A stretch of 64,000 nt of DNA from positions 2,701,998 to 2,765,997 of the forward strand of contig NZ_CP098514.1 of the NCBI RefSeq assembly GCF_023703775.1, read 5' to 3'. The position numbers and the translations under genes are program-made. Source of the stretch: Haloplanus sp. GDY1 (GTDB taxonomy: Archaea; Halobacteriota; Halobacteria; Halobacteriales; Haloferacaceae). The notes under the pieces are model-generated. The model saw only the letters and a list, made by a program, of their open reading frames with translations. It searched no databases and was not told the origin of the DNA. Position 1 is the stretch's first letter, and each line of letters opens with the position of its first letter. Of this stretch, positions 39,359-59,203 are shown one piece after another.

Positions 39359-39402
39359 TCGAACTGTCCCCGTCACCGAGATGCGGAGGGGAGTTAATAA
39401 AG

Positions 39403-39446
39403 GTTCCTGAGGAACTTTTATATAATTACAGTCGTACCCTGCGGGT
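39403..39446 (+). promoter_or_regulatory. Promoter with inverted repeat before the SBP-like cluster
   Basis: GTTCCT-G-AGGAAC (39403-39415) directly abuts the TATA box TTTTATATAA (39416-39425), which is 27 nt before ATG 39447, so the transcript is leaderless. A repressor bound at the repeat would block TFB access. A second copy is found at 41366-41408. Confidence 0.65.
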
Positions 39447-40343: not shown

Positions 40344-41332
40344 GCCGGCGCCACGTCGACGCCCAGCAGGCCGCCTTCGACGAGTACCACGGGGACCCCG
40401 GCGACCTGCCGGTCGTGCGGGCGCGGTTCGAACACAACGGGAGCCCGCGGTACCTCCTCTATACGATCAAGCGGTTCGGCCTCGACCGGGCGCACGGCTT
40501 CCACCTCGACGTGGAACTCGTCTCGGACGACCTCGAAAGCGGGCTGACGACGATCCGGGAGCGACTGGACGAGGGGAGAACCGACCTCGTCGACACCGAC
40601 TTCATCTCCGCCGCCCGGGAGCGTGCCGGGGGCGCCGACGTCGTCGCCGTCCACCCCTACGGGCGGACGGTCGGCGGGCTGGTCGCCCCCGAGGGGACGG
40701 ACATCGAGGGACTGGCGGACCTCCGGGATCGCCGCGTCGGCGTCACCCGCCGCCTCGACAAGAACTGGATCCTGACGCGGGCGGCCTGCCGGGCGTTCCA
40801 CGGCTTCGACCCCGCCGACACCGTCACCCTCGTCGAGGCGGGGTCGCGCGACGGGCTCACCGACCTGATCCGCGAGGGCGAGGTCGACGCCGGCTTTCAG
40901 TTCTGGCCGCTCGTGCCCGAACTCACGCGGACCGGACCGTACACGGAGGTCCTCCCGGTGGCCGGCCTGGTCCAGCGGCTCTCCGGCACCGACCGAAGAC
41001 TCCCCGTGGCGACGTTTCTCACCGGCGAGTCGTTCCTGCGCGAGGAGACCGAGACGGTGCGGGCGTTCGCCCGCGCCGCCCGCGACGCGACCGACCGCCT
41101 CCGGGCCGACGACGACCTCTGGGTGGAACTCGGCGAGCGCCTGATGGCCGACGACGACCCCCGGGTCGTCCGGGCGGTCCGGGACGGCTGGCGCGACATG
41201 GCGGTCCGCGACTGGGACGCGGAGACGGTGGCGGGAATGCACCGGCTGTTCGACCACCTGAAATCCGTCGCCGGCACGGAGGCGCTGGGCGTCCAGGGGA
41301 TCCCCGAGGGAACCCTCCGCCCGGATCCGTGA
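40340..41332 (+). CDS. Substrate-binding-protein-fold protein B1, cytoplasmic
   Basis: The 330-residue protein starts at a GTG inside the previous stop. It opens SRRHVDAQQAAFDEY, then RARFEHNGSPRYLLYTIKRF, and has VGVTRRLDKNWILTRAACRAF and VDAGFQFWPLVPE, typical of an SBP-type two-lobe ligand fold. No signal peptide is present. It is the paralogue of the gene at 41519: equal length, and roughly two thirds or more identical by eye, with near-identical DNA over the first third. The ligand is unknown. Confidence 0.78.
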   Translation: MSRRHVDAQQAAFDEYHGDPGDLPVVRARFEHNGSPRYLLYTIKRFGLDRAHGFHLDVELVSDDLESGLTTIRERLDEGRTDLVDTDFISAARERAGGADVVAVHPYGRTVGGLVAPEGTDIEGLADLRDRRVGVTRRLDKNWILTRAACRAFHGFDPADTVTLVEAGSRDGLTDLIREGEVDAGFQFWPLVPELTRTGPYTEVLPVAGLVQRLSGTDRRLPVATFLTGESFLREETETVRAFARAARDATDRLRADDDLWVELGERLMADDDPRVVRAVRDGWRDMAVRDWDAETVAGMHRLFDHLKSVAGTEALGVQGIPEGTLRPDP

Positions 41333-41365
41333 CCGGTGTGCCGTGGTTCGACCACCGGTATGAAC

Positions 41366-41408
41366 GTTTCCAAGGAACTTTTATCAGGGTACAGTCGTAC
41401 CTGCGGGT
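41366..41408 (+). promoter_or_regulatory. Second copy of the inverted-repeat promoter
   Basis: GTTTCCAAGGAAC (41366-41378) is followed by TTTTATC (41379-41385) and ACAGTCGTACCTGCGGGT. The last block is shared, with one base missing, with the promoter at 39428-39446. It was copied together with the gene cluster. Confidence 0.6.
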
Positions 41409-41522
41409 ATGCCGACCGACGAGAGTCTCGCGGCGCCCCGTCTGGGATCGCCCGGCGCCGCGGCGTGTGCCGCCCCCGAGTCGACGCGCCAGGTGACCGC
41501 TCCACGGCCCGGTGACCGATGA
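41409..41522 (+). pseudogene. 37-codon relic of a duplicated SBP-A gene
   Basis: A short frame (MPTDESLAAPRLGSPG and so on) starts right after the copied promoter at the position where gene A starts after its own promoter. The first codons (atg-ccg-acc-gac-gag) resemble those of gene A (atg-tca-gcc-gac-gac). It ends in an ATGA overlap with gene B2, like A does with B1. It is best read as an internally deleted copy of A that still couples translation; a genuine leader peptide is the alternative. Confidence 0.55.
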
Positions 41523-42511
41523 CCCGGGGCCACGTCGACGCCCAGCAGGCCGCCCTCGACGCGCACCACGACGATCCGGGGGAACTGCCGGTCATGCGGG
41601 CGCGGTTCGAGCACAACGGGAGCCCGCGATACCTCCTCTATACGATCAAGCGGTTCGGCCTCGACCGGGCGCACGGCTTCCACCTCGACGTGGAACTCGT
41701 CTCCGACGCCCTCGAAGACGGCATCGAGACCGTCGAGGCCCAGCTGCAGGAGGGGCACGCCGACCTCATCGACATCGACTACATCTCCATCGCCCGGGAG
41801 CGCGCCGAGGGGGCGGACATCGTCGCCTTCCACCCCTACGGGCGGACGGTGGGGGGGCTGGTCGCCCCGGAGGACGCCGACATCGACGGGCTGGCGGACC
41901 TGTCCGGTCACCGGATCGGCGTCGTCCGCCGCCTCGACAAGAACTGGATCCTGACGCGGGCGGCCTGCCGGGAGTTCCACGGCTTCGACCCCGACGAGAC
42001 GGCCACCCCCGTCGAGGCCGGGTCGAAGGTCGAACTCACGCGGATGATCGAGGAGGGCGAGGTCGACGCCGGCTTCCAGTTCTGGCAGATCGTCCCGGAG
42101 ATCACGGAGACGGGCCCCTACGAGAACGTCCTGCCCGTCTCGGAACTGGTCCAGCGCCTCTCCGAGACGGACAACAAACTCCCCGTGGCGGCCTTCCTCA
42201 CCAGCGAGTCGTACCTGCGCGAGGAGACCGAGACGGTGCGGGCGTTCACGGAGGCGTACCGCGACGCGGTCGACCGCCTCGTCGAGGACGACGAGATATG
42301 GGCGGAGATCAGCGAGCAACTCATGAGCTACGACGACCCCGACGTGATGCGCGCGGTGCGTGACGGCTGGCGCGACATGGTGGTCCGCGACTGGGACGCC
42401 GAGAGCGTCGAGGGGATGTACCGGCTGTTCGACCACCTGAAGTCAGTCGCCGGCGCCGAGGCGCTCGGCGTCGGGGAGATCCCCGAGGGCACCTTCGAGG
42501 TCGATCCATGA
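41519..42511 (+). CDS. Substrate-binding-protein-fold protein B2, cytoplasmic
   Basis: This 330-residue paralogue of B1 opens TRGHVDAQQAALDAHHDD and keeps the motifs RFEHNGSPRYLLY, RRLDKNWILTRAACREF and DAGFQFWQIVPEI. No signal peptide is present. It is coupled downstream to gene C by an ATGA overlap and upstream to the relic. Retention of both copies suggests they may form a heteromer or bind different ligands. Confidence 0.78.
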   Translation: MTRGHVDAQQAALDAHHDDPGELPVMRARFEHNGSPRYLLYTIKRFGLDRAHGFHLDVELVSDALEDGIETVEAQLQEGHADLIDIDYISIARERAEGADIVAFHPYGRTVGGLVAPEDADIDGLADLSGHRIGVVRRLDKNWILTRAACREFHGFDPDETATPVEAGSKVELTRMIEEGEVDAGFQFWQIVPEITETGPYENVLPVSELVQRLSETDNKLPVAAFLTSESYLREETETVRAFTEAYRDAVDRLVEDDEIWAEISEQLMSYDDPDVMRAVRDGWRDMVVRDWDAESVEGMYRLFDHLKSVAGAEALGVGEIPEGTFEVDP

Positions 42512-43476
42512 CGGAGACGGTCACCTTCCAGTTGAACTGGGAGCCGAACGGCTTCCAGGCACCGTACTTCCTCGCGCGCCGCGAGGGCTTCTACGAGGAG
42601 GAGGGCCTCGACGTGGAGTTCGTCGAGGGTCACGGCTCGCCCTTCGCCGCCGAACAGACCGCGAAGGGTCGAAGCGACCTCGGCCTCGCCGGTGGGAGCG
42701 CCGTCCTCTCGGTGCGGAGCCAGGGGCTCGAACCGCTGGCGGTCGCCGCGGTCAGCCAGAAGACGCCGGCGACGGTCTACAGCCTCCGGGACGTCTTCGG
42801 CGAGCCGTTCACCGATCCCGAACAGCTCCGGGGACGGACGGTCGGCCCGTCGGCGACCAAGACCCGGATCCTCACCCTCCAGTTGCTGGAGGACCGGGGC
42901 ATCCGCGACGAGGTGACGGTCAACGACGTCCAGAAACACACGCACCACCGCGTCGAACACCAGTTGCTCGACGGCGACGTCGACGCCGCGGTGGGGGTCG
43001 TCACCAACGGCAAGGAACTCGAACGGGAGTACGACCGGACGGCCGACGAACTCCTGATCGGGGACTACCTCGACGTCTACGGCATGACGGTCGTCACCAA
43101 CCCCGAGTTCGCGGCGTCGAACCCGGGGACGATCCGCTCGTTCCTGCGAGCGACCGCCCGGGGGTGGGAACTGGCGACGAACGACCCCGATCGGGCCGTC
43201 GACGCGCTGATCGACCGGAACGCCCAGCTCGAACACAACCGCGAGGTCGAACACATGAAGTTCCTCGCGTCCGCCGAGGACCTCCAGTTCACCGAGTTCG
43301 TCCGCGAGGCGGGCTGGGGACACTTCGACGGCGGACGCTGGGAGAACCTGGCCGAGATGCTGGCGGAGACGGACTTGCTCGAATCGCCCGTCGACCCCGG
43401 GGCGGCGTGGACGAACGAGTACGTCGACGACGACGATCCGGTGATCGCGAACTACGCCGACCGGATCGGACGCTAG
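42508..43476 (+). CDS. NMT1/THI5-like substrate-binding-fold protein C, cytoplasmic
   Basis: The 322-residue protein starts TVTFQLNWEPNGFQAPYFLARR, the NMT1/THI5-like signature, and has FYEEEGLDVEFVEGHG, SDLGLAGGSAVLSVRSQG and NDVQKHTHHRVEHQLLDG. No signal peptide precedes the first strand. THI5 homologues convert their own histidine and PLP into HMP-P; a His-rich HTHH is present here, but I do not see the Cys-rich THI5 loop. It could equally be a cytosolic binding protein. It converges on the next gene. Confidence 0.78.
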   Translation: MTETVTFQLNWEPNGFQAPYFLARREGFYEEEGLDVEFVEGHGSPFAAEQTAKGRSDLGLAGGSAVLSVRSQGLEPLAVAAVSQKTPATVYSLRDVFGEPFTDPEQLRGRTVGPSATKTRILTLQLLEDRGIRDEVTVNDVQKHTHHRVEHQLLDGDVDAAVGVVTNGKELEREYDRTADELLIGDYLDVYGMTVVTNPEFAASNPGTIRSFLRATARGWELATNDPDRAVDALIDRNAQLEHNREVEHMKFLASAEDLQFTEFVREAGWGHFDGGRWENLAEMLAETDLLESPVDPGAAWTNEYVDDDDPVIANYADRIGR

Positions 43477-44190: not shown

Positions 44191-46311
44191 ATGTCATCCG
44201 AATCAAGCGGCGAACAGGACGGGCCGACCAAGACGATCTGCCCGTACTGCGGCGTGGGGTGTGGGATCCAGATTACGCAGGACGACGACGGGGAAGTCAA
44301 CTTCCGGCCGTGGGGCGACGCGCCGGTCAACGAGGGGAGCATCTGCATCAAGGGCGGGGCGGCGACCCAGTCGGTCAACCACGAGGATCGGCTGACCGAC
44401 CCGCTGATCCGCGACGACGACGGCGAACTCCGTGAAGCCTCCTGGGACGAGGCCTACGACCTGGTCGTCGACGAGATGGAGCGCATCCGCGACGACCACA
44501 GCGCGCAGGCGATGGGCTTCTACGGCTGTTCGAAGGCGATGAACGAGGAGAACTACCTCATCCAGAAGCTCGCCCGTCGCTACGGCACCAACAGCGTCGA
44601 CACCTGTACGCGGATGTGTCACTCCTCGACGGTGTACGCGCTCAAGAACAGCCTCGGCGAGGGCGCGATGACCAACAGCATGGCAGACCTGGAGGAGGCC
44701 GCGGACGTGTTCTGGATCCAGGGCGCCAACCCCGGCGAACAGCACCCCATCGCCAACAGCCAGTACTTCCGACAGGCGGTGCTGGAGGGGGCGACCGTCA
44801 TCCAGGTCGACCCGCACGCGAACAAGACGACGCGGTCGTTCGAGATCGACGAGACCGACCGCCACATGCACCTCCAGCTCGAACCGGGGACGGACATCCC
44901 GCTGCTGAACGTCGTCATCAAGACCGTACTGGAGAACGGCTGGGTCGACGAGGAGTTCGTCGAGGAGCGCACCGAGGGCTTCGAGCACTTGGAGGAGACG
45001 CTGGCGGACTTCGACAAGGAGGAGGCCGCCGAGGAGTGTGGCGTCCCCCTGGAGGACATCGAACTCGCCGCCGAGAAGTACGCCAAGGCGAACAACGCGG
45101 CCATCTTCACGGGCATGGGGATGAGCCAGCACACCTGCGGCGTCGACAACGTGCAAAACGAGATCAACCTCGCCCTCATCACCGGGAACCTGGGCCGTCC
45201 GGGCACGGGCGTCAACCCCCTCCGCGGCCAGAACAACGTGCAGGGTGCCTCCGACGTGGGCGCGATGCCGAACGTCCTCCCCGGCTACCGCGACGTCTCC
45301 GACCCCGAGGTTCGCGCCGACGTCGAGGAGGTGTGGGACTTCGAGATCCCCTCGACGCCCGGGCTGACGAACGTCGAGGTCTCCCACGAGATCGGCGAGA
45401 CGATCCACGGGCTCTACATCATGGGCGAGAACCCCGTGATGAGCGAACCCGACACCAACCAGGTCGAGAAGCGCCTGGAGGAACTGGACTTCATGGTGGT
45501 CCAGGACATCTACAAGACCGAGACCGCCGAGTACGCCGACGTGATCCTGCCCGCCACCTCGTGGGCCGAGCGCGACGGAACGGTCGTCAACACCGACCGC
45601 CGCACCCAGCGGATGCGCGGGGTCGACAAGGTCCACCCGAACACGAAACACGACCTCGAGATCCTCTGTGACGTCGGGAACCGCCTGTTCGGCGACGGCA
45701 GCTTCGACTTCGACGGTCCGGAGGAGGTGTTCGAGGAACTCCGGCAGGTCGCGCCCATCTTCCACGGCATGACCTACGACGTGCTCGGCGAGGAGGGGGT
45801 CCACTGGCCCTGCTACGAACCCGGCGACGAGGGCGACCCCTACCTCTACGAGGACGGGTTCACCACCGAGAGCGGCCTCGGTCAGATCGAGGGTGTGCGC
45901 CACCAGCCGCCGAAGGAAGTGCCCGACGACGAGTACCCGCTGATCCTCACCACCGGTCGGATCATCGAACACTACAACACGGGGACGATGAGCCGTCGCT
46001 CCGAGACGCTCAACCGCGTCGAGCCCGAGAACTTCGTCGACGTCCACCCGAACGACGCCGAGAACTACGGCATCGAGGACGGCGACTACGTGACCCTTCG
46101 GTCCCGGCGCGGGGAAATCGAGGTCGAGGCTCGCGTCACCGAGGACATCAAGGAGGGGACGGTGTGGACGACGCCGCACTTCGCCGACGCCGCTGGCAAC
46201 CGGCTCACGAACGACGTGCTCGACGAGCGGGCGAAGATCCCCGAGTACAAGGCCGCAGCCGCGGAGATCGAGGTCACGGTCGACACCGCCGACGCCCCGG
46301 CGGACGACTAA
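44191..46311 (+). CDS. fdhA-like: Formate dehydrogenase-type molybdopterin oxidoreductase
   Basis: The 706-residue protein has a 4Fe-4S site Cys17/Cys20/Cys24/Cys52 (CPYCGVGCG, ICIKG), a catalytic Cys143 in TRMCHSSTV at the FDH Cys/Sec position, and the molybdopterin regions GANPGEQHP, ATSWAERDGTVVNTDRR and TTGRIIEHYNTGTMSRRS. It would oxidize formate to CO2 in the cytoplasm; there is no Tat signal. No FdhD or electron-transfer subunit is adjacent, so the acceptor is unknown. TTTTTACA lies about 25-30 nt before the start. Confidence 0.9.
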   Translation: MSSESSGEQDGPTKTICPYCGVGCGIQITQDDDGEVNFRPWGDAPVNEGSICIKGGAATQSVNHEDRLTDPLIRDDDGELREASWDEAYDLVVDEMERIRDDHSAQAMGFYGCSKAMNEENYLIQKLARRYGTNSVDTCTRMCHSSTVYALKNSLGEGAMTNSMADLEEAADVFWIQGANPGEQHPIANSQYFRQAVLEGATVIQVDPHANKTTRSFEIDETDRHMHLQLEPGTDIPLLNVVIKTVLENGWVDEEFVEERTEGFEHLEETLADFDKEEAAEECGVPLEDIELAAEKYAKANNAAIFTGMGMSQHTCGVDNVQNEINLALITGNLGRPGTGVNPLRGQNNVQGASDVGAMPNVLPGYRDVSDPEVRADVEEVWDFEIPSTPGLTNVEVSHEIGETIHGLYIMGENPVMSEPDTNQVEKRLEELDFMVVQDIYKTETAEYADVILPATSWAERDGTVVNTDRRTQRMRGVDKVHPNTKHDLEILCDVGNRLFGDGSFDFDGPEEVFEELRQVAPIFHGMTYDVLGEEGVHWPCYEPGDEGDPYLYEDGFTTESGLGQIEGVRHQPPKEVPDDEYPLILTTGRIIEHYNTGTMSRRSETLNRVEPENFVDVHPNDAENYGIEDGDYVTLRSRRGEIEVEARVTEDIKEGTVWTTPHFADAAGNRLTNDVLDERAKIPEYKAAAAEIEVTVDTADAPADD

Positions 46312-47912: not shown

Positions 47913-49640
47913 TTACTCTTCGCTGAGGCCGAAGACGGCGATGGTGGAGCCACGGCGACCGCCGTGGAGCCAGCCGGAGCCGCCGACCTGGACCGCGACG
48001 TACTGTTTGCCCTCGCCGGGGTCGTACCAGCTGGAGAGCGACGAGCAGATCGGTGCGCCGAGCTGGAACTGCCAGAGGCGGTCACCGCTCTCGCCGTCGT
48101 AGGCGATGATGTTCCCGTTCTGGGTGCCGGTGAACATGAGGCCGGTCGCGGTCGTGATCGACCCGCCCCAGAGGTAGTCGCTGGTGACTTCCTGGGAGAT
48201 CCAGTCGCGCCAGACGACGTCGCCCGAGGCCGGGTCGACGGCGACGATGGCGCTGAGGTTGCCGTTCCAGTCGGCCGGTTCGGTGACGTCGGGCCAGTCG
48301 TTGAGGCCGCCGCCCCAGTAGGTCTGGCCGGCCTCGTACTGCGCCTCCTCCCAGAAGATCTCGTGAGGCGCGTTGTTCTGGTTCATGTACATCAGGCCCG
48401 TCTCGTGGCTGTACGACGGCGGCTGCCAGTCGTTGCCACCGTGTGCGCCCGGCACGAAGGCGACCCGACGGTCCTCGTCGGTGTGTGGAATCATCTTCCA
48501 CATGTTGATGTGCTGGGTCGTCTCCTCGGAGCGCTCGAGCAGGCGACCGTTCTCGGCGTCCATCGTGTAGACCCAGGCGGTCTTGCCGGGGCTGAGGACG
48601 ACGTCGCGCGTCTCGTCGCCCATCTCCATGTCGTTGACGCGGATCTTGGTCGCCGAGGAGTCGTAGTCCCACACGTCGTGGGGGGACTCGCCGTAGTGCC
48701 ACTGGATGGACCCGTCGTCGGCGCTGAGGGTCAGCGTCCCGATGGTGTAGCGGTTCGGACCCGGACGGACCGTGCCGTCGAAGTCCGGGCCGGGGTTCCC
48801 GACGGGCGCGTGGATCATGCCGCTGTCGGGATCGATGGTCGGCGTCATCCACACGGTACCGGCGCCGTGTTCGTGGGAGTCGCCGGCCCACTCCTCGGGC
48901 GGCGTCGTGTTGGTTCGCCAGATCTCGTCCCCGCTCTCGGGGTCGAGCGCCGCGACGAACCCGCTGACGCCGTACTCGCCGCCGGCGGAGCCGGTGATGA
49001 CCTGGCCCTCGTAGACGACGGGCGCCCAGGTGGCGGAGTAGCCGATCTCGTGGTCACCGGTCGACTTGTACCACGCCTCTTGGCCGGTGTAGCGGTTGAG
49101 CGCCACGACACCGGAGTCGAGCGTGGTCATGTAGACCTTGTCGCCGTAGACGGCGAAGCCACGGTTGTTCGCGTCACAGCAGAGTAGGAGCCCCTGCGGG
49201 TTCGCGTACGTGTAACTCCAGAGGGTCTCGCCGGTGCGGGCGTTGATCGCCTTCGCGTGGTTCGGCCCGTTGGTCTGGTACATGACCGGCGGATCCCCGG
49301 GGACGACGATGGGGACGCCCTCCATGCTGGAGGCGACGCCGCTCTGTACCAGATACTCCATCTGGAGGTTCTCGACGTTGTCGGGCGTGATCACGTCGGC
49401 GGACGTGTACCGCTGCTGCTGGTAGTTCCCGCCGTACATCAGCCAGCTCTCGGGGTTGTCGACCGCCGAGGCGTGGAGATCCTCCTGGGTGACGTCTCGC
49501 TGGGGGATCTGCTCGATGTCGAACTGGTGGGTGATCGACTCGTCGGGCAGGTTCGTCAGCGTGTACCCGTCCTCGACCTCCACCATCTCGATGTTCTGTG
49601 CCGCCTGAGCCGCTTTGTCTACTTCCTGAATGCTAGCCAT
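47913..49640 (-). CDS. PQQ-dependent alcohol dehydrogenase, lanthanide-type signature
   Basis: The 575-residue protein is an eight-bladed quinoprotein dehydrogenase of the methanol/ethanol family. The vicinal disulfide is Cys154-Cys155 (LLCCDANNRG). Metal ligands are Glu222 (GGEYGVSG) and Asn282 (GNPGPDFD), with the stacking Trp264 and the catalytic Asp325 in HDVWDYD. Asp327, two after it, is the extra ligand that marks lanthanide-dependent XoxF/PedH-type enzymes; calcium enzymes have another residue. No signal peptide is present, though it must act outside with PQQ. It follows a Tat-signal gene by 3 nt. No cytochrome domain is fused. Confidence 0.9.
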   Translation of the reverse strand: MASIQEVDKAAQAAQNIEMVEVEDGYTLTNLPDESITHQFDIEQIPQRDVTQEDLHASAVDNPESWLMYGGNYQQQRYTSADVITPDNVENLQMEYLVQSGVASSMEGVPIVVPGDPPVMYQTNGPNHAKAINARTGETLWSYTYANPQGLLLCCDANNRGFAVYGDKVYMTTLDSGVVALNRYTGQEAWYKSTGDHEIGYSATWAPVVYEGQVITGSAGGEYGVSGFVAALDPESGDEIWRTNTTPPEEWAGDSHEHGAGTVWMTPTIDPDSGMIHAPVGNPGPDFDGTVRPGPNRYTIGTLTLSADDGSIQWHYGESPHDVWDYDSSATKIRVNDMEMGDETRDVVLSPGKTAWVYTMDAENGRLLERSEETTQHINMWKMIPHTDEDRRVAFVPGAHGGNDWQPPSYSHETGLMYMNQNNAPHEIFWEEAQYEAGQTYWGGGLNDWPDVTEPADWNGNLSAIVAVDPASGDVVWRDWISQEVTSDYLWGGSITTATGLMFTGTQNGNIIAYDGESGDRLWQFQLGAPICSSLSSWYDPGEGKQYVAVQVGGSGWLHGGRRGSTIAVFGLSEE

Positions 49641-49643
49641 GCG

Positions 49644-50561
49644 TTACGCACCTCCCGTGCGCGGGGCGCGCATTTCGTCCGTGATGCGCATCACGTCGTT
49701 CGTGAGATCCTCCTGTCCGACGATCATCATCGCCGCACCGGCCGACAGCGCGGCGGTGAGCTGCGCGTCGCTCAGCTCCTGAGCGCCGGCGAGGTCCTCG
49801 GCGGCGTTGGCGAGCAGATGCAGTCCGGCGTACATCTGCTTGAGGTCCCCGTAGTTGTTGTCGAGGATGGTGTCCGTCAGGAGTACCTCGTTCTGCCAGA
49901 GGTACGTATCGAGGTAGTCCGTCCACAGCAGGACGCCCGCCGCCGCTCGCTGGTGGAGCGGAGCGATGTTGGCGGGGTCGAACCCCTCGACGCCGGCCGG
50001 GATGTTCTTCGTCGGCACCCACATGGCCAGCCGTTCCTTGTTGTTGACGACGTTGACGACCGTCGACGTCAGCTCCTCCTCGGTGTAGCCGAGTTCGAGG
50101 AGCGCGGACGCGAGCGCGCCCGTGCTGATGAGTTCGCGCGCCGTCGCGGCGATGTGCTCGGGCGTGAACTCCGGCAGGTTCTCCTCGACGCTCTCGAAGA
50201 AGCCGACTTCGACGAGATGCTCGTGGATCGCCCAGCCGGGCTCGGCGAGCTCCTGATAGGCCGTGCTGTCCTCGGCCGGGACGCCCATCGCGCGGAGCTC
50301 GTCCAGCTGAGCGATCTGTCCTTCCAGGGCGGCGAGTTCGCTACCCAGCAGACCCGCGTCCAGTTCTCCGGTCAGGTCCTCGCTGATGGCCTCGCCCATC
50401 GCGGCGAGTTCCCCCGCCGTCTCCCCTTCTACTTCTCCCCTGAGGTCGCTCAGGGTGAACTCACTACCTGCTGCCACTGCGCCGGTCAACCCGACGACCT
50501 TGAGGAACTGTCGGCGGTCCTCTTGGTCGATCTGGGGCATTCCGTTTACATATTGCGACAT
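49644..50561 (-). CDS. Tat-signal helical partner of the PQQ dehydrogenase
   Basis: The 305-residue protein begins with DRRQFLKVVGLTGAVAAG, a twin-arginine signal without a lipobox, followed by an all-alpha domain (TAGELAAMGEAISEDL, LGSELAALEGQIAQLDEL, YGDLKQMYAGLHLLANAAEDL). No metal or haem motif is visible. It is immediately upstream of and in the same operon as the dehydrogenase, which lacks any signal, so it may carry it through Tat as a complex and act as a small subunit. That role is inferred. Confidence 0.78.
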   Translation of the reverse strand: MSQYVNGMPQIDQEDRRQFLKVVGLTGAVAAGSEFTLSDLRGEVEGETAGELAAMGEAISEDLTGELDAGLLGSELAALEGQIAQLDELRAMGVPAEDSTAYQELAEPGWAIHEHLVEVGFFESVEENLPEFTPEHIAATARELISTGALASALLELGYTEEELTSTVVNVVNNKERLAMWVPTKNIPAGVEGFDPANIAPLHQRAAAGVLLWTDYLDTYLWQNEVLLTDTILDNNYGDLKQMYAGLHLLANAAEDLAGAQELSDAQLTAALSAGAAMMIVGQEDLTNDVMRITDEMRAPRTGGA

Positions 50562-50593: not shown

Positions 50594-50624
50594 TCTATAT
50601 TTAACTTTGTGATATATTTCACAA
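50594..50624 (-). promoter_or_regulatory. Inverted repeat and TATA box before the PQQ operon
   Basis: TTGTGA-TATATT-TCACAA (50607-50624) has perfect 6-bp arms. Reading leftward, TTAAATATA (50594-50602) is next and could be the TATA box, about 35 nt before ATG 50561. The region is very AT-rich beside GC-rich genes. A repressor or activator dimer is expected there. Confidence 0.55.
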
Positions 50625-51373: not shown

Positions 51374-51381
51374 TTTATATA
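51374..51381 (+). promoter_or_regulatory. TATA box that decides the start of the HTH-SBP gene
   Basis: TTTATATA at 51374-51381 overlaps the in-frame ATG at 51381, so that ATG cannot be in the transcript. The in-frame GTG at 51405 is 27-28 nt from the box centre, the leaderless spacing seen elsewhere here. Confidence 0.6.
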
Positions 51382-51404: not shown

Positions 51405-52658
51405 GTGCGAGTTCGAGAGTTTCCCGTCCTCGGCGACGAGGACGAACGAGCGGTCGAGGCGTTCGCCGCGGGACTCGACCGCGAGGCGGCGCGGGTCCTC
51501 GCCTATCTGGTCGGGCGCGAGGACACCGACCGCTTCTCCGGCGAGGCGGCGTCGCGGCTGGCCGTCCGCGTCGGCGTCGACCTGGGTCGCGGCCGGGTCT
51601 CCGACGTCCTCGCCACGCTCACCGACAGCGGTCTGGTCACCGAGACGACCGTCGAGAGCGAGGCGCCGGGCCGTCCCCCCAAGGGCTGGCGCGCCGACGC
51701 CGGCCACGACCGGACGGTCGAGCGCGTGCGCGCCCTCCACTCCGAGGCGCTGCTCGACCGGGCGGCGTCGGTCGCCGCGAGCCTCGGCGACGACGTCGGC
51801 GTCGACGCCGGCGCACGGTCGGGGACCCTCGATCCGGTCGCGGTGGGGCTCAACTGGGAGCCCAACGGTCTCCACGCGCCCCTGTTCGCGGGGCGCTACG
51901 ACGTCGACGTGAGCTTCACGGGCCGTCGCGGCTCCCGCGCCGCGCTGTCCGCGGTGGCCGACGGCGACGTCGACGTGGCGCTCACCGGCGCCGCGACGCT
52001 GCTTCGCGCCCACGCCGACGGTCACGACGTGATCCCCCTCGCGCTCTACTACCAGCGGGCGATGGTCGTCCTCTACACCACCCGCGAGACGTTCGGGGGT
52101 CCGCTCCGGAGCGTGGAGGACGTGCGCGGCCGTCGGGTCGCCATGCCCGCCGGCTCCGAGACGGGGGCGCTCGGGCGGCTCTTCCTGTCACAGGCCGGCG
52201 TCGTCGACGACGTGACCGTCGTCCGCGCCGACGGCGAGGAGCGCGAGGCGCTGCTCGACGGCGACGCCGACGTGGCGACCGGCGTCTTCACCGATCCGCT
52301 GGAACTGGAGGCCGCCGGCCACGACGTGGATTCGGTGCTCGTGGCCGACCACTTCCCGGTCCCCGGGCCCGCCTTCGTCGTCCGCCGGGAGACGCTCCGG
52401 GACCGTCCCGCCGCGCTCCGGGGGTTCCTCGAAGGCGCGATGGCCGGCTGGAGCGCCGCCAAGGTCGACCCCGCGGCGGCGGTCGACGCCCTCGACGGAC
52501 GAGGCGGCGAGCGGGACGCGGCCGAGCGGCGCAAACTCGCCCAGGCGCTCGACCGCTTCGCGGACAGCGACGCCGTCGAGAAGAACGGCTGGGGGTGGCA
52601 CTCCGTCGAGACGTGGCAGCGGCTCCGGATCGCCCTCGATCAGGCGGACGCGCTATGA
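51405..52658 (+). CDS. Winged-helix DNA-binding domain fused to an NMT1/SsuA-like binding domain
   Basis: The protein has 417 residues from GTG 51405 (an ATG at 51381 would add eight). Residues about 20-100 form a winged helix (ARVLAYLVGREDTDRF, RLAVRVGVDLGRGRVSDVLATLTDSGLV), then GRPPKGWRA as a wing. From about 128 the SBP domain begins VAVGLNWEPNGLHAPLFAGRYDVDV with FTGRRGSRAALSAVADGDVDVALTG. No signal peptide or lipobox is present. It heads an ABC-transporter operon (ATGA overlap), so it probably senses the transported ligand in the cytoplasm and regulates the locus. Confidence 0.82.
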   Translation: MRVREFPVLGDEDERAVEAFAAGLDREAARVLAYLVGREDTDRFSGEAASRLAVRVGVDLGRGRVSDVLATLTDSGLVTETTVESEAPGRPPKGWRADAGHDRTVERVRALHSEALLDRAASVAASLGDDVGVDAGARSGTLDPVAVGLNWEPNGLHAPLFAGRYDVDVSFTGRRGSRAALSAVADGDVDVALTGAATLLRAHADGHDVIPLALYYQRAMVVLYTTRETFGGPLRSVEDVRGRRVAMPAGSETGALGRLFLSQAGVVDDVTVVRADGEEREALLDGDADVATGVFTDPLELEAAGHDVDSVLVADHFPVPGPAFVVRRETLRDRPAALRGFLEGAMAGWSAAKVDPAAAVDALDGRGGERDAAERRKLAQALDRFADSDAVEKNGWGWHSVETWQRLRIALDQADAL

Positions 52659-53428
52659 TTCGGGTCGAGGATCTGTCGGTCACCTACGGCGACCTCCGCG
52701 CGCTCGCCGACGTCTCCCTCGACGTCGCCGACGGCGAGTTCGTCACGGTCGTCGGCCCCTCGGGCTGTGGCAAGACCACGCTCCTTCGGACCATCGGCGG
52801 GCTGGAGGAGCCGACGACGGGCCGCGTCACCGTCGACGGCGACCCGCCCGAGGTCGCCCAGTCGGACGCCCGCCTCGGCTTCGTCTTCCAGGAGCACACC
52901 CTGTTGCCTTGGAAGACCGCCGTCGAGAACGTCACCTTCCTCCGGCGGATGGCGGGGAAGGACCCCGACCCCGAGGGCGCCCGCGACCTGCTCTCGACGA
53001 CGGGGCTCGACGGCTTCGAGGACGCCCGCCCCGGCGAACTCTCCGGGGGCATGAAACAGCGGGTCGCCATCGCCCGCGCCATCCACCTCGGCGCCGAGGT
53101 GTTGCTCATGGACGAACCGTTCGGCGAACTCGACGAGATCACCCGCGACGAGATGAGCGTCGAGATCCTCCGCCTCTGGCGCGAGAACCGAAAGACCGTC
53201 GTGTTCGTCACCCACAGCGTCCCCGAGGCCGTCTTCCTCGGCGACCGCTGCATCGTGGTCTCGGGGTCGTCCGGCGCCGACCCGGCCGCCGGCGACGACG
53301 CGCCCGGTCGGATCGTCGGCGAGTTCGACGTCGACCTCCCGCGTCCCCGCGACGAGTCGGTGTTCGGCTCCGAGGCCTTCGGGACCCAGGTCGCCGAGGT
53401 GCGCCGGGCGCTCCACGACGACGCATGA
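52655..53428 (+). CDS. ABC transporter ATP-binding protein (nitrate/sulfonate/taurine type)
   Basis: The 257-residue ATPase has Walker A GPSGCGKTT (34-42), Q-loop FVFQEHTLLPWKT, signature LSGGMKQRVAIARA, Walker B LLMDEPFGELDEITR and switch His in FVTHSV. It is the SsuB/TauB/ThiZ-like branch. It overlaps genes on both sides. It would power both permeases nearby, as no other ATPase gene is present in the locus. Confidence 0.95.
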   Translation: MIRVEDLSVTYGDLRALADVSLDVADGEFVTVVGPSGCGKTTLLRTIGGLEEPTTGRVTVDGDPPEVAQSDARLGFVFQEHTLLPWKTAVENVTFLRRMAGKDPDPEGARDLLSTTGLDGFEDARPGELSGGMKQRVAIARAIHLGAEVLLMDEPFGELDEITRDEMSVEILRLWRENRKTVVFVTHSVPEAVFLGDRCIVVSGSSGADPAAGDDAPGRIVGEFDVDLPRPRDESVFGSEAFGTQVAEVRRALHDDA

Positions 53429-54180
53429 GCGTCGCGGAACGCGTTCCGCTCCCCGACGTGACGCTCCCGGTCGCGGGACTGGTCGCCGCCGTCGGCTGCT
53501 GGTGGGCGGTCACCGTCGCCTTCGCCATTCCCCCCTTTCTCCTGCCGTCGCCGGCCGCCGTCGCCGCCCGCCTCGCCGGCGACCCCGCGCTCTACCTGTC
53601 GAGCGCCGCCGAGACGCTCCGGAAGGTCCTCGTCGGCGGCGCCGTCGGGGTGGTCGCCGGCTTCGCCATCGCCGTCCTCGTCGCCACGATCCCCCTGCTC
53701 AAGCGGGCGATCTACCCCTACCTCGTCGCGATGCGCGTCCTCCCGAAGATCGCGGTCGCGCCCCTCTTTCTCATCTACTTCGGCGTCGGCTTCGGGACGG
53801 CCGTCCTCTTCGTCGCCCTCGTCGTCTTCTTCCCCGTCGTCGTCGGGACGGCCGCGGGCCTCTCGCGGACGCCCGAGGCCCACCTCGATCTGCTCCGGTC
53901 GGTCGACGCCGACCCCGTCCGGACCTTCCTCGCAGTACGGCTGCCCCACGCCCTCCCCGACGTCTTCGCCGGCCTGAAACAGGCGGTCACGCTGGCCGTC
54001 GTGGGCGCCGTCGTCGCGGAGTGGATCCTCTCGAACGACGGCCTCGGCTCCCTGATCCTCGTCGCCTCGGAGAACGTGCAGGTGGACGTGATGCTCGCCG
54101 CGCTCGCGGTGTTGCTCCCCATCGGGTTCCTCCTCTACGGCGGCGTGACGCTCTGTCAGCGCGCGGTCGCGTGGGCCTAG
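53425..54180 (+). CDS. ABC transporter permease, SsuC/ThiX type
   Basis: The 251-residue protein has six hydrophobic helices and the inner-membrane EAA loop (MRVLPKIAVAPLFLIYFGVGFGTA, then RLPHALPDVFAGLKQAVTLAVVGAVVAEW). It overlaps the ATPase gene by 4 nt. It belongs to the BPD_transp_1 family for SsuC-like importers. It converges on the second permease gene. Confidence 0.92.
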   Translation: MSVAERVPLPDVTLPVAGLVAAVGCWWAVTVAFAIPPFLLPSPAAVAARLAGDPALYLSSAAETLRKVLVGGAVGVVAGFAIAVLVATIPLLKRAIYPYLVAMRVLPKIAVAPLFLIYFGVGFGTAVLFVALVVFFPVVVGTAAGLSRTPEAHLDLLRSVDADPVRTFLAVRLPHALPDVFAGLKQAVTLAVVGAVVAEWILSNDGLGSLILVASENVQVDVMLAALAVLLPIGFLLYGGVTLCQRAVAWA

Positions 54181-54194
54181 CCCCTGTCCAGTCG

Positions 54195-54998
54195 CTAGCC
54201 CCAGTCCAGGCGCCGCTCCACCGCCGCGGGCACGAGGTAGAAGCCGAGGCCGAGGAGGGTGAGGGCGCCCAGGGTCGCGAAGGTGGCGCTCGTCCGCAGG
54301 AACTCGGCGGTGTGGAACAGCCGGTAGCCGAGCCCGGACTGGAGGGTGAGGAACTCCGCGACGACGGTGCCCACGACGGCCAGCGCGGCGGCGAGTTTCA
54401 CGCCGGCGAAGACGCTCGGCGCGGCCGCGGGCACCCGGACCCGGAGGAAGGTCCGCGCCGGCGACGCCCGAACCGAGCGGGCGAGGTCGGTGTACTCTCG
54501 GGGGACCGACCGGAGCCCGTCGACCGACGCGATTGCGACGGGAAAGACGGTCATGGTGGTGACGAGGGCGGCCCGCGAGAGGACGCCGTCGCCGATCCAG
54601 AGGAAGACGAGGGGGGCGACCGCGATCAGCGGCGCGATGCGCAGCGCGATCAGGTAGGGGTGGAGGATCGCGGCCGCCGCCCGCGACCCGACCATCGCGA
54701 AGGCGAGGGTGAGACCGACGACGACCCCGCCGACGAGGCCGAGGGCCGCCGTCGCCGCCGTGACGCCCGTCGCCGCGAGCAGCGTCCCCCGGGCCGCCAC
54801 GGCCGCCGTCGCCACGTCGACCGGCGAGGGGAGGATCACCTCCGGGACGCCGGTCGCCGTCACGAACCACTGCCAGCAGCCGACGACGACGACGAACACC
54901 GCGACGGGGGGCCAGGCGTGGCCGAGGACCGACCGGACGGTCCCGCCGCTCACCGTCGGCGTCTCGACGGCCGCGAGTCGCCGATCGGAGGTCGACAT
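54195..54998 (-). CDS. ABC transporter permease, second (SsuC/ThiX type)
   Basis: The 267-residue membrane protein parallels the other permease (ALRIAPLIAVAPLVFLWIGDGVL, PAAAPSVFAGVKLAAALAVVGTVVAEF) but is only distantly similar. It starts in an ATGA overlap with the binding-protein gene, so these two form a separate operon. It lacks its own ATPase and may use the one at 52655, either as a heterodimer or as a second importer. Confidence 0.92.
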   Translation of the reverse strand: MSTSDRRLAAVETPTVSGGTVRSVLGHAWPPVAVFVVVVGCWQWFVTATGVPEVILPSPVDVATAAVAARGTLLAATGVTAATAALGLVGGVVVGLTLAFAMVGSRAAAAILHPYLIALRIAPLIAVAPLVFLWIGDGVLSRAALVTTMTVFPVAIASVDGLRSVPREYTDLARSVRASPARTFLRVRVPAAAPSVFAGVKLAAALAVVGTVVAEFLTLQSGLGYRLFHTAEFLRTSATFATLGALTLLGLGFYLVPAAVERRLDWG

Positions 54999-56089
54999 CA
55001 GACGACGTCGGCGTACGACCCCACGTATCGGGAGTCGGTGTCGAGGTAGTCGTTGGTCCAGACGGCGCTCGGGTCGACTTCGCCGCCCAGGGCGTCCGCG
55101 TCCGCGAGGGCGTCGCGGACGACCCGCCAGGGTTCGGCCTCGCTCCACCCCCAGCCGTGGTCCCTGACGGCGTCGCTCAGCATGAACTCCCCGGCCATGG
55201 TCTCCCACTTCCGGCGCTGCTGGTCGCGGGACTCCGAGAGGACGCCGTTCGCCTCGACCAGCAGGTCGGTCGCCTCGCCGGGGCGCTGCTGAGCCCACGC
55301 GGCCCCGCGGGCGGTCGCCCGGAGGAACGCCCGGACGGCCTCGGGGTTGGCTGCGGCCCAGTCCCGCTCCGCCGCGATCACGTGGCCGTAGGAGGGGATC
55401 GCGTTCGCGACGGGGATGCTGTCGACGGTGTAGTCCTGGGCCTCGGCGCTGATGGCGTCGCCGAAGACGCCGCCGGCGGCGTCGATCTCGCCCGCGAGGA
55501 GCTGCTGGACCGTGTCGTAGCCGGTGTCGACCATCTCGACGTCCTCGCGGACGCCCGCCTCCGCCAGGAGCAGCGAGGTGAGCATCCGCACCATCCCCGG
55601 ACCGGTGCCGACCGTCTTGCCGGCGAGTTGCTCGACGTCGGTCAGTTCGCCGCCGAAGGTCTCCCGCGTCGAGAACACCACCGCCGGACTCCGCTGCATC
55701 ACGACCCCCACCGACTGCGGTGAGAGGCCCCGGCTGTTGATGTTCAGCACCTGATCGCTGCTCGTGACCGCGAAGTCGACGTTGCCGAGGCCGGCCTGCT
55801 TCGCCGAGAACGTCGATCCCTCTCCCGTCTCGATGGCGTCGAGCGTCAGCCCCTCCTCCTCGTAGAACCCCTTCGCCTTCGCGGTGAAGTAGGGGACGTG
55901 GAGCCCGCTCGGCTTCCAGTTGAGGAGCAGCGACGACTCGCCCGGGATCGGCGTCCCCGTGGCCGTGCCGGTGGGTGTCGCCTCCCCGCCGGCCCCGGCG
56001 TCCGTCCCGCCGAGACATCCCGAGAGCCCCGTCGCCCCGGCAGCGCCCGCCGCGACGAGAAACGATCGTCTCGTCGGTGTGGATTCCAT
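54998..56089 (-). CDS. ABC substrate-binding Tat lipoprotein, NMT1/THI5-like
   Basis: The 363-residue protein has a Tat signal (TRRSFLVAAGAAGATGLSG) with lipobox Cys25. The binding domain has LLLNWKPSGLHVPYFTAKAKG, FYEEEGLTLDAIETGEGSTF and VDFAVTSSDQVLNINSRG. It is exported and lipid-anchored outside. The ATG 56089 start is preferred to the GTG at 56098. The LNWxPxG segment is also in the HTH-fused protein and gene C at 42508, so all three bind related ligands (inference); thiamine-precursor-like pyrimidines are one possibility. Confidence 0.92.
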   Translation of the reverse strand: MESTPTRRSFLVAAGAAGATGLSGCLGGTDAGAGGEATPTGTATGTPIPGESSLLLNWKPSGLHVPYFTAKAKGFYEEEGLTLDAIETGEGSTFSAKQAGLGNVDFAVTSSDQVLNINSRGLSPQSVGVVMQRSPAVVFSTRETFGGELTDVEQLAGKTVGTGPGMVRMLTSLLLAEAGVREDVEMVDTGYDTVQQLLAGEIDAAGGVFGDAISAEAQDYTVDSIPVANAIPSYGHVIAAERDWAAANPEAVRAFLRATARGAAWAQQRPGEATDLLVEANGVLSESRDQQRRKWETMAGEFMLSDAVRDHGWGWSEAEPWRVVRDALADADALGGEVDPSAVWTNDYLDTDSRYVGSYADVV

Positions 56090-56138
56090 GGGCGCCACTC
56101 AGGACACGGATAGTATAAAAATTCCGGTGAAACGTTTA

Positions 56139-56429
56139 TTAACTGACCCCGATCTCGTCGTCCGACGGCGACCACTCGAACTCGAGTTCGAGTTCCAGTT
56201 GGCGGTGGGTCTCGCCCACGAACTCCACCTCGACCTCGATGGGTTCGTCGAACTCGAAGGGGATCTCCCACTCGTCGGTGGAGATCGTGAGTCGGGGCTC
56301 CGATTCGATCTGGTCGGCGAGGTCACGCAGGAACGCCGCCGTCGACTCCCGGGAGAGGCGCACCTCCCGCTCGAAGTAGCCGTCGGTGACGGTCCGTGGA
56401 CCGTCGTTCGCGTCCGGCAGGTCGGCCAT
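56139..56429 (-). CDS. Amphi-Trp domain protein
   Basis: This 96-residue protein has the small amphi-Trp fold: EVRLSRESTAAFLRDLADQI, then a beta-hairpin with Trp (STDEWEIPFEFDEP) and ELELEFEWSPS. The domain is common in haloarchaea and of unknown biochemical role. It is monocistronic and divergent from the ArsR gene. Confidence 0.85.
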   Translation of the reverse strand: MADLPDANDGPRTVTDGYFEREVRLSRESTAAFLRDLADQIESEPRLTISTDEWEIPFEFDEPIEVEVEFVGETHRQLELELEFEWSPSDDEIGVS

Positions 56430-56485
56430 ACCGTGCCATACGAGGAGAGAGGTAAAATAGTGTGCGTCCCAAGGACGGACGACCG

Positions 56486-56776
56486 ATGTCCCTGTTCGAC
56501 GTTCTCGGGAGCAAGGCGCGACTACAGATCATCCGCGAACTGTCCACGGAACCCCGGTACGTCTCCGAACTCGCCGACCGCGTCGGGATGGACGGCAAGA
56601 CCGCGGTACACCACCTCTCGACGCTCGAGGAGGCGGGCATCGTCGAGAGCTACCGGACCAGCCGACGGAAGTACTACCGGCTGACCAAGCGCATCGAACT
56701 GCGCGCCTCGCCCGAACCCGACCCCATGTTTCTGCTACACGCCGTCGACGTCGACGAGGCCGAACAGTCCCGGTAG
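56486..56776 (+). CDS. ArsR-family transcriptional regulator
   Basis: The 96-residue winged-helix protein has SLFDVLGSKARLQIIRELSTE, YVSELADRVGMDGKTAVHHL (recognition helix) and SYRTSRRKYYRLTKRI (wing). No metal-binding cysteines are present, so it is not a metal sensor of the classic type. The start is ATG 56486. It may regulate the nearby antiporter gene 100 nt downstream. Confidence 0.9.
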   Translation: MSLFDVLGSKARLQIIRELSTEPRYVSELADRVGMDGKTAVHHLSTLEEAGIVESYRTSRRKYYRLTKRIELRASPEPDPMFLLHAVDVDEAEQSR

Positions 56777-56877
56777 CGCGACGTCCGCCCCGCTCCCGAC
56801 GGCGCGTGTATAATAATTCAATGCACGTTACTACTCGCGTACTAACATACATAACGGTCGACCGCTATCGACGGTCC

Positions 56878-58098
56878 ATGGTACGCACGCGGATGGTTGT
56901 CGGTATCGTGTTGTTGCTGTCGCTTCTCGTCGCTTCTCCGGCGGCGTCGGCGGTGGCCGACGACGTGGGGATCGAGGCCCCCGTCGACCCGGTCCTCGCC
57001 CAGGAGGAGGGTGAGGAGGAAGAGGGCGGTATCGAGGGGGCCATCGAGGGCTTCATCGAGGCACAGGGCACCGTCGGGGCGGTGATCGTGTTGCTCGGCG
57101 GCGCCCTCCTGCTGGCCGCCAGTACGGAAAAGCTCATCAGTTACCTCGCCCGCGCCGCGCTCAACCTGAAGATGTCGCTGTTCGCGCTCGCCATCATCTT
57201 CACCGGCTTCGAGTTCGACGACACGATCCTCGCGCTCGTGTTGTCGGCCGGCGGGCTGGAGGAGGCGGCGCTCGGGTCGGCGCTCGGGACGGGGCTGGCG
57301 ATCATCGGCGTGACGCTCGCGCTCGCGGCCCTCGTCGAGCCGTTCCCGGTCGACCTGCCGAACGACTACGTCGCCATCTTCGGGCTCGCGCCGCTGATCC
57401 TGGTCCCCTTCGTCCTGCTGGGGACGTTGACGGCGATCCACGGGATCGTCCTGACGGCCTTCTTCGTCTTCGCGTTCGGCTACTTCATCGTCCGGGAGCG
57501 CCGGCGCGACGTGCCCGTGTTCCGGAACACGGATCTGGGAAAGCAGCTCCGCCCCGACGGCGGAACCGCGACGCGGGCGGACGCGCTCGACGAGATCGCG
57601 GAGGAACGGATCCTCGGCGACCTCGCGGACTCCGGGATCGTGTGGATCGTCCTCTCGATCCTGGCGCTGGTCGGCATCGTCTTCGCGGCCATGCTCCTCG
57701 AGGGCGGCTCCGGCGTCGTGATGGAGGGGTTCGGCCTCTCCGGCACCGTCTTCGGGGCGACCATCCTCACCCTGATCCTCACCTTCGAGGACATCATGCT
57801 GACGCTGGAGCCGGTTCGGCGGGGCTTCCCCGAGATCGGCGTCGGCAACGTCATCGGGAGCGTCCTGTTCTCCGTGACGGGGAACATCGGCGTCATCATG
57901 TTCCTCAGCGAGGTGAGCATCTCCTCGTCCGTCCTCACCTTCCACCTGCCCTTCATGATCGTCGTGACGGCCCTCGCCGCGTACTTCTTCTACGAGGGGC
58001 AGATCGAGCGGTGGCACGGCGCCCTGCTCGGGGGGCTCTACGTCGCGTACTGGGTGATCGCGCTCGTCGTGTTCAGCGGCGTCCCGATCGGCGAGTAA
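56878..58098 (+). CDS. CaCA-superfamily (Na+/Ca2+ exchanger-like) protein with signal peptide
   Basis: The 406-residue membrane protein has a cleavable-looking N-terminus (VVGIVLLLSLLVASPAASA), an acidic loop and two five-helix halves. The second alpha repeat is ILTFEDIMLTLEPVRRG, then IGVGNVIGSVLFSVTGN; the first is FTGFEFDDTILALVL, in which the usual GTSLPE is not kept. It probably exchanges cations across the membrane, but the altered motif makes the ion uncertain. It converges on a related gene. Confidence 0.85.
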   Translation: MVRTRMVVGIVLLLSLLVASPAASAVADDVGIEAPVDPVLAQEEGEEEEGGIEGAIEGFIEAQGTVGAVIVLLGGALLLAASTEKLISYLARAALNLKMSLFALAIIFTGFEFDDTILALVLSAGGLEEAALGSALGTGLAIIGVTLALAALVEPFPVDLPNDYVAIFGLAPLILVPFVLLGTLTAIHGIVLTAFFVFAFGYFIVRERRRDVPVFRNTDLGKQLRPDGGTATRADALDEIAEERILGDLADSGIVWIVLSILALVGIVFAAMLLEGGSGVVMEGFGLSGTVFGATILTLILTFEDIMLTLEPVRRGFPEIGVGNVIGSVLFSVTGNIGVIMFLSEVSISSSVLTFHLPFMIVVTALAAYFFYEGQIERWHGALLGGLYVAYWVIALVVFSGVPIGE

Positions 58099-58135
58099 CG
58101 TCCCCCCGGCCATTTCGACCGCCGGAGCCGTGCCC

Positions 58136-59203
58136 TCACACCGCGTAGTTCGCGACCCAGTACGCGGCGTACGCGGCGAGCAGGACGGCGCCCGTGGGGC
58201 GACCCACCTTCCCGCGGTAGAACGCGACGGCGACGACGAGCATCGTCCCGAAGAAGAAGGGCCAGTGGACGGTGACGACCGAGCCGGTCGTGTTCAGCGG
58301 GTGGACCAGCGCGATCAGCCCCGCGTTGGCGCTGACGAAAAAGAGCATGCTCCCGACGACGTTGCCGACGCCGATGTGGGGTCGCCCCCGGCGGACGGGC
58401 TCGACCGTCAGGAACAGTTCCTCCAGCGACGCGATGAAGCTCATCACCGTCGCGCCGAAGGCGAGGCCGGTCACCCCGAGGAGCGTCAGCAGTTCCTTCG
58501 CCCCCTCGACGGCGAGTTCGGAGCCGACGGTCATCCCCACCGTGGCGACGACGGCGACGCCGAGAAACGCCGGACCCTCGTACCTCTCGGGGACGTGCTC
58601 CTCGACCAGGTCGTCGACGTCGAGGTCCAGATCCACGTCGAACCACTCCTCGTCGTCGTCGTCCTCGCTCGCCTCCCGCTCTGCCTCCATGACTTCCACC
58701 TCCTCCGAGGAGAGATAGCGGGTGTCCGTGTACCGCTCGAGCGTGTAGACGACGGCGAGGTAGGGGACGAACGTCGCGGTGAGGACGGCGCCGTCGAACC
58801 GGGAGAGGGTGCCGTCGAGCGCGAGGCCGAAGAAGAGAAACGGGGCCAGCAGCATGAGTCCGAGGTAGTTCCGCGGCACGTCGGTCTCGAAGGGGACGAG
58901 GACGCCGGCGAGGCCGACGGCCGCCCCGAGGATGAACAGCGCCTCGCCGAAGACGGTGCCGAGCGCCAGGTCCGGTAACTGGTCGTACGCGGCGGCGATG
59001 CCGAGGATCACGTTCTCCAGGTCCGTCCCCGCGAGGACGACGGTCAGGAAGAATCCGGAGACGCCGAGCGCGAGCGCCCCCTCGGCGACCGCCTCGATGA
59101 ACGTCTCGACGCTGACGATGACGACGGCCACCCCGACCAGGAACAACACGACCGACACCAGTTCGCCCGACAAGCCGAGTACCATGAGGGTTGACGGGGG
59201 CAT
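58136..59203 (-). CDS. CaCA-superfamily antiporter
   Basis: The 355-residue protein shares the fold with its neighbour: alpha repeat 1 VVLAGTDLENVILGIA and repeat 2 SFIASLEELFLTVEPVRRG, then IGVGNVVGSMLFFVSAN. A central acidic cytoplasmic loop (EASEDDDDEEWFDVDLDLD) separates the halves. The start may be at residue 7 (MVLGLSGEL). The common signature TVEPVRRGRPHIGVGN links both genes to one sub-branch. Confidence 0.85.
   Translation of the reverse strand: MPPSTLMVLGLSGELVSVVLFLVGVAVVIVSVETFIEAVAEGALALGVSGFFLTVVLAGTDLENVILGIAAAYDQLPDLALGTVFGEALFILGAAVGLAGVLVPFETDVPRNYLGLMLLAPFLFFGLALDGTLSRFDGAVLTATFVPYLAVVYTLERYTDTRYLSSEEVEVMEAEREASEDDDDEEWFDVDLDLDVDDLVEEHVPERYEGPAFLGVAVVATVGMTVGSELAVEGAKELLTLLGVTGLAFGATVMSFIASLEELFLTVEPVRRGRPHIGVGNVVGSMLFFVSANAGLIALVHPLNTTGSVVTVHWPFFFGTMLVVAVAFYRGKVGRPTGAVLLAAYAAYWVANYAV

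Follow-up and report, generated by a model that had tools for sequence, protein, structure and literature searches.

Our analysis of the window, by which we mean the whole 64-kb stretch of DNA (68.6% G+C, from a genome of 3.44 Mb), centres on a gene at 51405–52658 (+) whose 417-residue product lacks a signal peptide and joins a winged-helix-type region to an NMT1/ThiY-type substrate-binding domain. This fusion is conserved among haloarchaea, has a single origin, and is associated with a PQQ-type alcohol dehydrogenase. We propose, with a probability of about 0.6, that it is a cytoplasmic one-component regulator serving a cluster of PQQ-dehydrogenase and importer genes, with PQQ or something from its pathway as the leading, though weakly favoured, candidate ligand.

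Reading frame, promoter and operon

The reading frame is intact, opens with GTG, and has its start codon at the identical position in 32 of the 32 relatives compared (31 intact genes and one split copy from a MAG). Close upstream, at 51374–51381 (+), lies a TATA-like box of the TTTATATA type, conserved in seven congeners (the window and six others), at what appears to be about the position that a leaderless haloarchaeal transcript needs. On inspection, no hydrophobic or Tat/Sec-like stretch is visible at the N-terminus of the protein. The export signal expected of the binding protein of an ABC importer is absent, and both the fixed start and the leaderless-type promoter agree with this, bearing out the initial annotation, which had described a fusion without a signal peptide.

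That annotation had also placed the gene at the head of an ABC-importer operon, and rightly so: an ABC ATPase gene (52655–53428, +) overlaps the stop codon of the fusion gene and is itself overlapped by a permease gene (53425–54180, +). Convergent with these are a second ABC permease gene (54195–55001, −) and the gene for an exported NMT1-type lipoprotein (54998–56098, −), the partner binding protein, which has a Tat/lipobox start (RRSFLVAAGAAGATGLSGC) and a weak match to Pfam TAT_signal. Elsewhere in the window (39447–43476, +) stand four further NMT1-type proteins without an evident signal peptide (39447–40343, about 40379–41332, 41519–42511 and 42508–43476), which are possibly cytoplasmic carriers or enzymes. 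Close homologues of the third occur in 40 of the 292 genomes sampled, and 38 of these 40 genomes also have the PQQ-type dehydrogenase.

Domain make-up of the fusion

The protein consists of a winged-helix-type region (residues ~1–100; 51405–51704, +), a linker (residues ~101–142; 51705–51830, +) and a complete NMT1/ThiY-type binding-protein fold (residues ~143–417; 51831–52655, +), and the two-domain make-up seen at the outset is thereby borne out, the NMT1 fold being modelled with confidence and the winged helix supported by sequence profiles. Searched separately, as had been suggested, the two halves behave differently. The C-terminal half matches Pfam NMT1 (PF09084) over residues 167–359 with E 8.4e-23 and 81.8 bits, well above the cut-off of 20.5. 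For the N-terminal half, the NCBIfam MreA model matches all 32 family members (best E 4.9e-7), and the Lrs14 model and Pfam MarR_2 each match 24 of the 32, whereas the window protein alone gives weak matches (MarR_2 at 0.0028, below the curated cut-off, and MreA at 2.9e-5). Tested against the MreA family itself (NF053756), it scores 23.8 bits where the curated cut-off is 100; at most, the N-terminal region would be a relative of that family.

Further comparisons point the same way. The family profile aligns with PDB entries 2d1h (E 0.0087) and 6cmv (E 0.032), both archaeal regulators, across the recognition helix and the GRP wing, and a wing motif GRPP-x-x-W is conserved; the invariant N-terminal residues are L9, G23, R30, L32, L35, R38, G57, L72, G89, R90, P91 and W95. 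Counting against a winged helix, an hhalign comparison of the N-terminal profile with the neighbouring ArsR family reached a probability of no more than 15%, although it was the best of 14 such comparisons. Each match to the winged-helix superfamily is weak singly and consistent over the family, and taken together the profiles support a winged helix in the N-terminal half well. AlphaFold2 models this half with low confidence, with pLDDT below 50 for residues 1–101 of the whole protein and a mean of 43 when the half is folded alone, from alignments in which only 4–5 usable sequences span it. The modelling check set by the initial annotation thus neither shows a winged helix nor speaks against one. 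As a separate observation, an Orc1-like protein of another haloarchaeon (locus L099, 3506–4672) has a C-terminal winged helix that aligns with the N-terminal profile of the fusion by way of a GRPP wing.

The linker, modelled with low confidence, opens with a predicted long helix. Residues 145–417 are modelled with pLDDT mostly between 80 and 95 as a two-lobed type-II binding-protein fold, whose best structural match is ThiY (3ix1; Z 26.6 over 269 residues), followed by a thiamin-binding protein (4nmy; 23.4), Thi5 (22.8), SsuA (20.7) and PqqT (19.3); the regulatory domains that NrtC and CmpC carry in the cytoplasm (8wm7, 9uak) match with Z of about 17–18. Over 12 pairwise comparisons, dN/dS was 0.06–0.59 for residues 2–100, 0.10–0.40 for residues 143–417, and 0.22–1.70 for the fast-evolving linker. 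Both domains are under purifying selection while the linker, residues 101–142, drifts.

Several positions are common to the fused domain, the partner lipoprotein and the signal-less paralogue (L149, N150, W151, P159, G176, S177, R227, G395-W396-G397 and W404), which suggests related ligands. Others (R201, R244, E252, E278 and E279) never vary among the fusions but are not the same in the partner, so that the ligand of the fusion may differ from that of the partner. The invariant set as a whole appears pocket-like, as a one-component sensor needs.

Origin of the fused domain

How did an importer-type domain come to be joined to a winged helix? In a tree with four bacterial proteins as outgroup, the 15 fused domains that we included fall together in a single clade (100/99), with the partner lipoproteins and the signal-less paralogue as its sister group (94/93). 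Because of these clades, we read the family as the product of a single old fusion event and the fused domain as a paralogue of the importer binding protein rather than a recent copy; the notion that it is simply the partner lipoprotein stripped of the signal peptide is rejected by the same tree. The initial annotation had seen a one-component sensor made from the importer's own fold. What stands of this is a cytoplasmic, conserved unit of winged-helix-type region and NMT1-type domain with a single origin, and what falls is the direct derivation, since the domain belongs to a clade separate from the importer's own binding protein.

Distribution and gene company

When 292 haloarchaeal genomes were searched for similar fusions, 46 proved to have the whole architecture (in 42 of them one match spans the full length, and in 4 two matches share one frame), spread over 18 of 77 genera as counted by hand from genus labels, all belonging to the single-origin family. 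In a sample of the phylum no fusion was found outside Halobacteria, the 8 positive genomes of 392 each lying within the window's own order, and in a plasmid search the bacterial matches spanned only about the binding domain. In seven plasmid records at least 80% of the fusion is present; it is annotated as an ABC substrate-binding protein in four, as hypothetical in two, and not at all in one.

The association with the dehydrogenase is strong. Of the 46 fusion genomes 44 have a PQQ-type dehydrogenase, and of the 49 genomes with the dehydrogenase 44 have the fusion and five do not (Fisher p 5e-44); by genus, again counted by hand, the association is 17 of 18 each way (p 7e-15, with no further correction for phylogeny). 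The two lie within 20 kb of each other in 35 of the 46 genomes. In G135, a genome from the same genus as the window, the fusion, the dehydrogenase, the signal-less binding protein that was searched for and the ArsR homologue are all missing together.

The tie to the importer is looser. Among 24 loci compared, 17 have the arrangement of the window, with fusion, ATPase and permease facing permease and lipoprotein, six do not have that importer adjoining, and one shows remnants. In this last locus (L050) the fusion is followed by short stretches left over from the ATPase and from the partner binding protein, as though the importer were being lost and the fusion were staying. In a search of 52 genomes picked for the fusion, the dehydrogenase or the signal-less operon, 31 of the 46 with the fusion yielded a close partner binding protein and 15 did not. 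These counts lend only partial support to the earlier proposal that the fusion could report on what the importer brings in, given the 15 genomes in which no close partner was found and the 44 in which the dehydrogenase was.

The PQQ-type dehydrogenase and its neighbours

The dehydrogenase of the window (47913–49640, −) carries CC and DYD motifs and starts directly after the preceding gene, without any signal peptide. Among 12 clustered homologues the Asp-x-Asp arrangement (WDYD) is present in all 12 and the vicinal CC in 11, the twelfth being a fragment; the former is the signature of the lanthanide type. The dehydrogenase forms an operon with a conserved unknown protein (49644–50561, −). Export of the enzyme as a Tat hitchhiker with this protein was considered and rejected, since no more than 4 of 11 homologues have the RRxFL motif and these 4 belong to the same genus as the window.

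No genome of 59 had a PqqE match over the cut-off, weak matches being found everywhere, including all 14 controls, and none of the 59 had a PqqC match, in a search that held no positive control. From these results and the signal-less dehydrogenase, an imported cytoplasmic PQQ pool is a reasonable guess and no more. PMC12124388 describes the PQQ enzymes of bacteria as predominantly periplasmic. Given this, a cytoplasmic PQQ enzyme would be a surprise.

Several other genes accompany the cluster. An exchanger-like protein pair (56806–59203), the first of which matches Pfam Na_Ca_ex, adjoins it in many genomes and may have to do with the metal that the dehydrogenase uses. The alpha subunit of a formate dehydrogenase (44191–46311, +), over the NCBIfam cut-off, is found near it in genomes of the same genus as the window and in a small number of others, and an Amphi-Trp protein (56142–56432, −) travels with it, as does an ArsR-type regulator.

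Candidate DNA sites and the ArsR-type neighbour

A palindromic, operator-like inverted repeat with the pattern TAAASRTT-N7-AAYSTTTA covers the TATA region of both the signal-less binding-protein operon (39398–39420) and the partner lipoprotein gene (56116–56138), and recurs upstream of the third signal-less binding protein (41361–41383). These are the only three places in the whole 3.44-Mb genome where it occurs, all of them in the cluster, while a backward control pattern occurs at one place. This confinement is good evidence that the cluster would have a dedicated local regulator; a thiamin regulator, which we had entertained as the operator binder, was dropped on the same ground.

Which protein might bind the repeat? 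Allowing up to 2 mismatches, the site is present in 30 of 38 signal-less-operon promoters from 36 fusion genomes and in 3 of 4 from fusion-less genomes. Promoters of the partner lipoprotein have the site in 10 of 18 cases among fusion genomes and in neither of 2 cases elsewhere, promoters of the fusion itself in 1 of 24, and promoters of the dehydrogenase operon in 0 of 13, the backward control giving 0 in every set. Fusion-less genomes keep the operator, and promoters of the fusion and of the dehydrogenase operon hardly ever or never have it, so we assign no DNA site to the fusion. Two other repeats deserve mention. The dehydrogenase-operon promoter contains a perfect inverted repeat, TTGTGA-N6-TCACAA (50607–50624), which has no second copy in the window even when 2 mismatches are allowed. 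In four genomes whose dehydrogenase operon and fusion gene are divergent, a GATAA-type repeat, recognised by eye alone, lies upstream.

The distribution of the operator brings in a rival binder, the single-domain ArsR-type regulator encoded at 56462–56776 (+). All but one of the 49 dehydrogenase genomes and all but one of the 46 fusion genomes have a homologue of it, and none of 7 control genomes does; it is found in the three genomes that retain the operator without the fusion and is absent from a genome (G037) that has neither operator nor fusion. On the other hand, one genome (G162) has the ArsR homologue and an importer promoter without the site. By these patterns the ArsR-type neighbour would fit the operator-like site at least as well as the fusion does. 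It is a serious possibility, to which we give somewhat less than even odds, that this neighbour controls the cluster and that the fusion is a minor or auxiliary regulator, an arrangement that would nonetheless be compatible with a second, fusion-specific set of sites.

Proposed role and ligand

In the reading that we prefer, a regulator serving the cluster, an archaeal winged helix of MreA/Lrs14/MarR-like type would read DNA, probably as a dimer. The type-II fold of the ThiY/NMT1 group would close on a small intracellular ligand and thereby shift the DNA-binding half, acting by activation or by repression at promoters that presumably belong to the cluster of the signal-less dehydrogenase and the NMT1-type ABC importer. 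The importer would bring in the ligand, presumably PQQ or a pathway compound, and the cluster proteins would be made once it is inside.

The cues to the ligand diverge, sequence favouring the thiamin and pyrimidine-precursor group and gene company favouring PQQ. PQQ or a relative leads weakly, because the dehydrogenase is signal-less and no PQQ-synthesis gene reaches its cut-off. A broader picture, that some haloarchaea unable to make PQQ have a cytoplasmic PQQ-dependent and perhaps lanthanide-dependent dehydrogenase whose PQQ is imported by an NMT1-type ABC transporter, held on signal-less binding proteins and sensed by the fusion as a gene-switching PQQ receptor in the cytoplasm, we regard as rather unlikely.

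A regulator that instead senses thiamin or a pyrimidine-type compound, with the tie to the dehydrogenase reflecting a shared habitat or transfer of the whole cluster, is a tentative alternative. By sequence, both the binding domain and the partner resemble thiamin and pyrimidine-precursor binders, the nearest fold and sequence are those of ThiY, the 4nmy protein and Thi5, and the LNW-x-P pocket stretch of the fusion recurs in other NMT1-type proteins of the cluster; PqqT was not among the matches obtained with the partner lipoprotein as query at E up to 10. Against this reading are the restriction of the operator-like site to the three cluster places in the window's genome and the dehydrogenase in 44 of 46 fusion genomes.

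We consider it improbable that the fusion gates the co-transcribed ABC transporter in the manner of NrtC/CmpC, with the N-terminal region as a protein-contact module. The overlap with the ATPase gene and the closeness of the fold to the NrtC/CmpC regulatory domains would suit such a role, but the importer is missing beside the fusion in six of the 24 loci and reduced to remnants in one more, and winged-helix profiles match all 32 members, with the GRPP wing conserved.

That the N-terminal region is a mis-called start or a non-functional extension of a stray binding protein, as the low-confidence model of this half and the plasmid annotations might suggest, is very improbable and largely refuted by the start fixed in 32 of 32 relatives, the purifying selection on residues 2–100 and the invariant N-terminal residues.

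Comparison with known systems

In a literature search of largely open-access papers, we recognised no account of a fusion of this kind or of a PQQ sensor in haloarchaea. The nearest arrangements are bacterial. SgrR of enterobacteria combines a winged-helix DNA-binding domain with a cytoplasmic ABC-type solute-binding domain (SBP_bac_5), and the fusion, with its probable DNA-binding region and cytoplasmic binding domain, resembles it in this pairing; neither the SgrR N-terminal domain nor SBP_bac_5 is among the Pfam matches of the fusion at E up to 1. Btr of Bacillus subtilis joins an AraC-type DNA-binding domain to a FeuA-like siderophore-binding domain and is encoded beside the importer of the same ligand. 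It too shares with the fusion a cytoplasmic binding domain joined to a DNA-binding one, in the fusion a probable one, but it is bacterial, AraC-type and FeuA-like. LysR-type regulators, often divergent from their target operon, have a winged helix, a linker helix and an effector domain of type-II binding-protein fold; their HTH and substrate families are not among the four Pfam families that match the fusion at E up to 1, and the effector part of the fusion is, unlike theirs, an importer-type NMT1/ThiY domain of ~275 residues.

Other relatives share one half only. NrtC and CmpC have a cytoplasmic NrtA-type domain of similar fold with a sensing role, but theirs is fused to a transporter ATPase rather than to a DNA-binding domain. 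ThiY, the thiamin-binding protein of Clostridioides difficile (4nmy) and Thi5 are closest to the C-terminal half in fold and sequence; the first two are extracytoplasmic importer parts, Thi5 is an enzyme, and to our knowledge none of the three carries a winged helix. PqqT of Methylobacterium, whose ligand is PQQ according to PMC12124388, belongs to the same fold group (Z 19.3, behind ThiY at 26.6) but is periplasmic and without a winged helix. The MreA and Lrs14 regulators match the N-terminus of the fusion (32 and 24 of 32 members), their models being single domains of ~100 positions.

We propose a conserved haloarchaeal regulator in which a winged-helix-type region and an importer-type binding domain appear as a variant of the SgrR/Btr arrangement, and which is unusual in being tied to a PQQ-type dehydrogenase that lacks a signal peptide. 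The family would offer a handle on the cargo of the linked importer and on archaeal regulation of a PQQ-type dehydrogenase. While the binding proteins of ABC importers are normally taken as extracytoplasmic, this family would, like SgrR and Btr, use such a fold as a cytoplasmic sensor.
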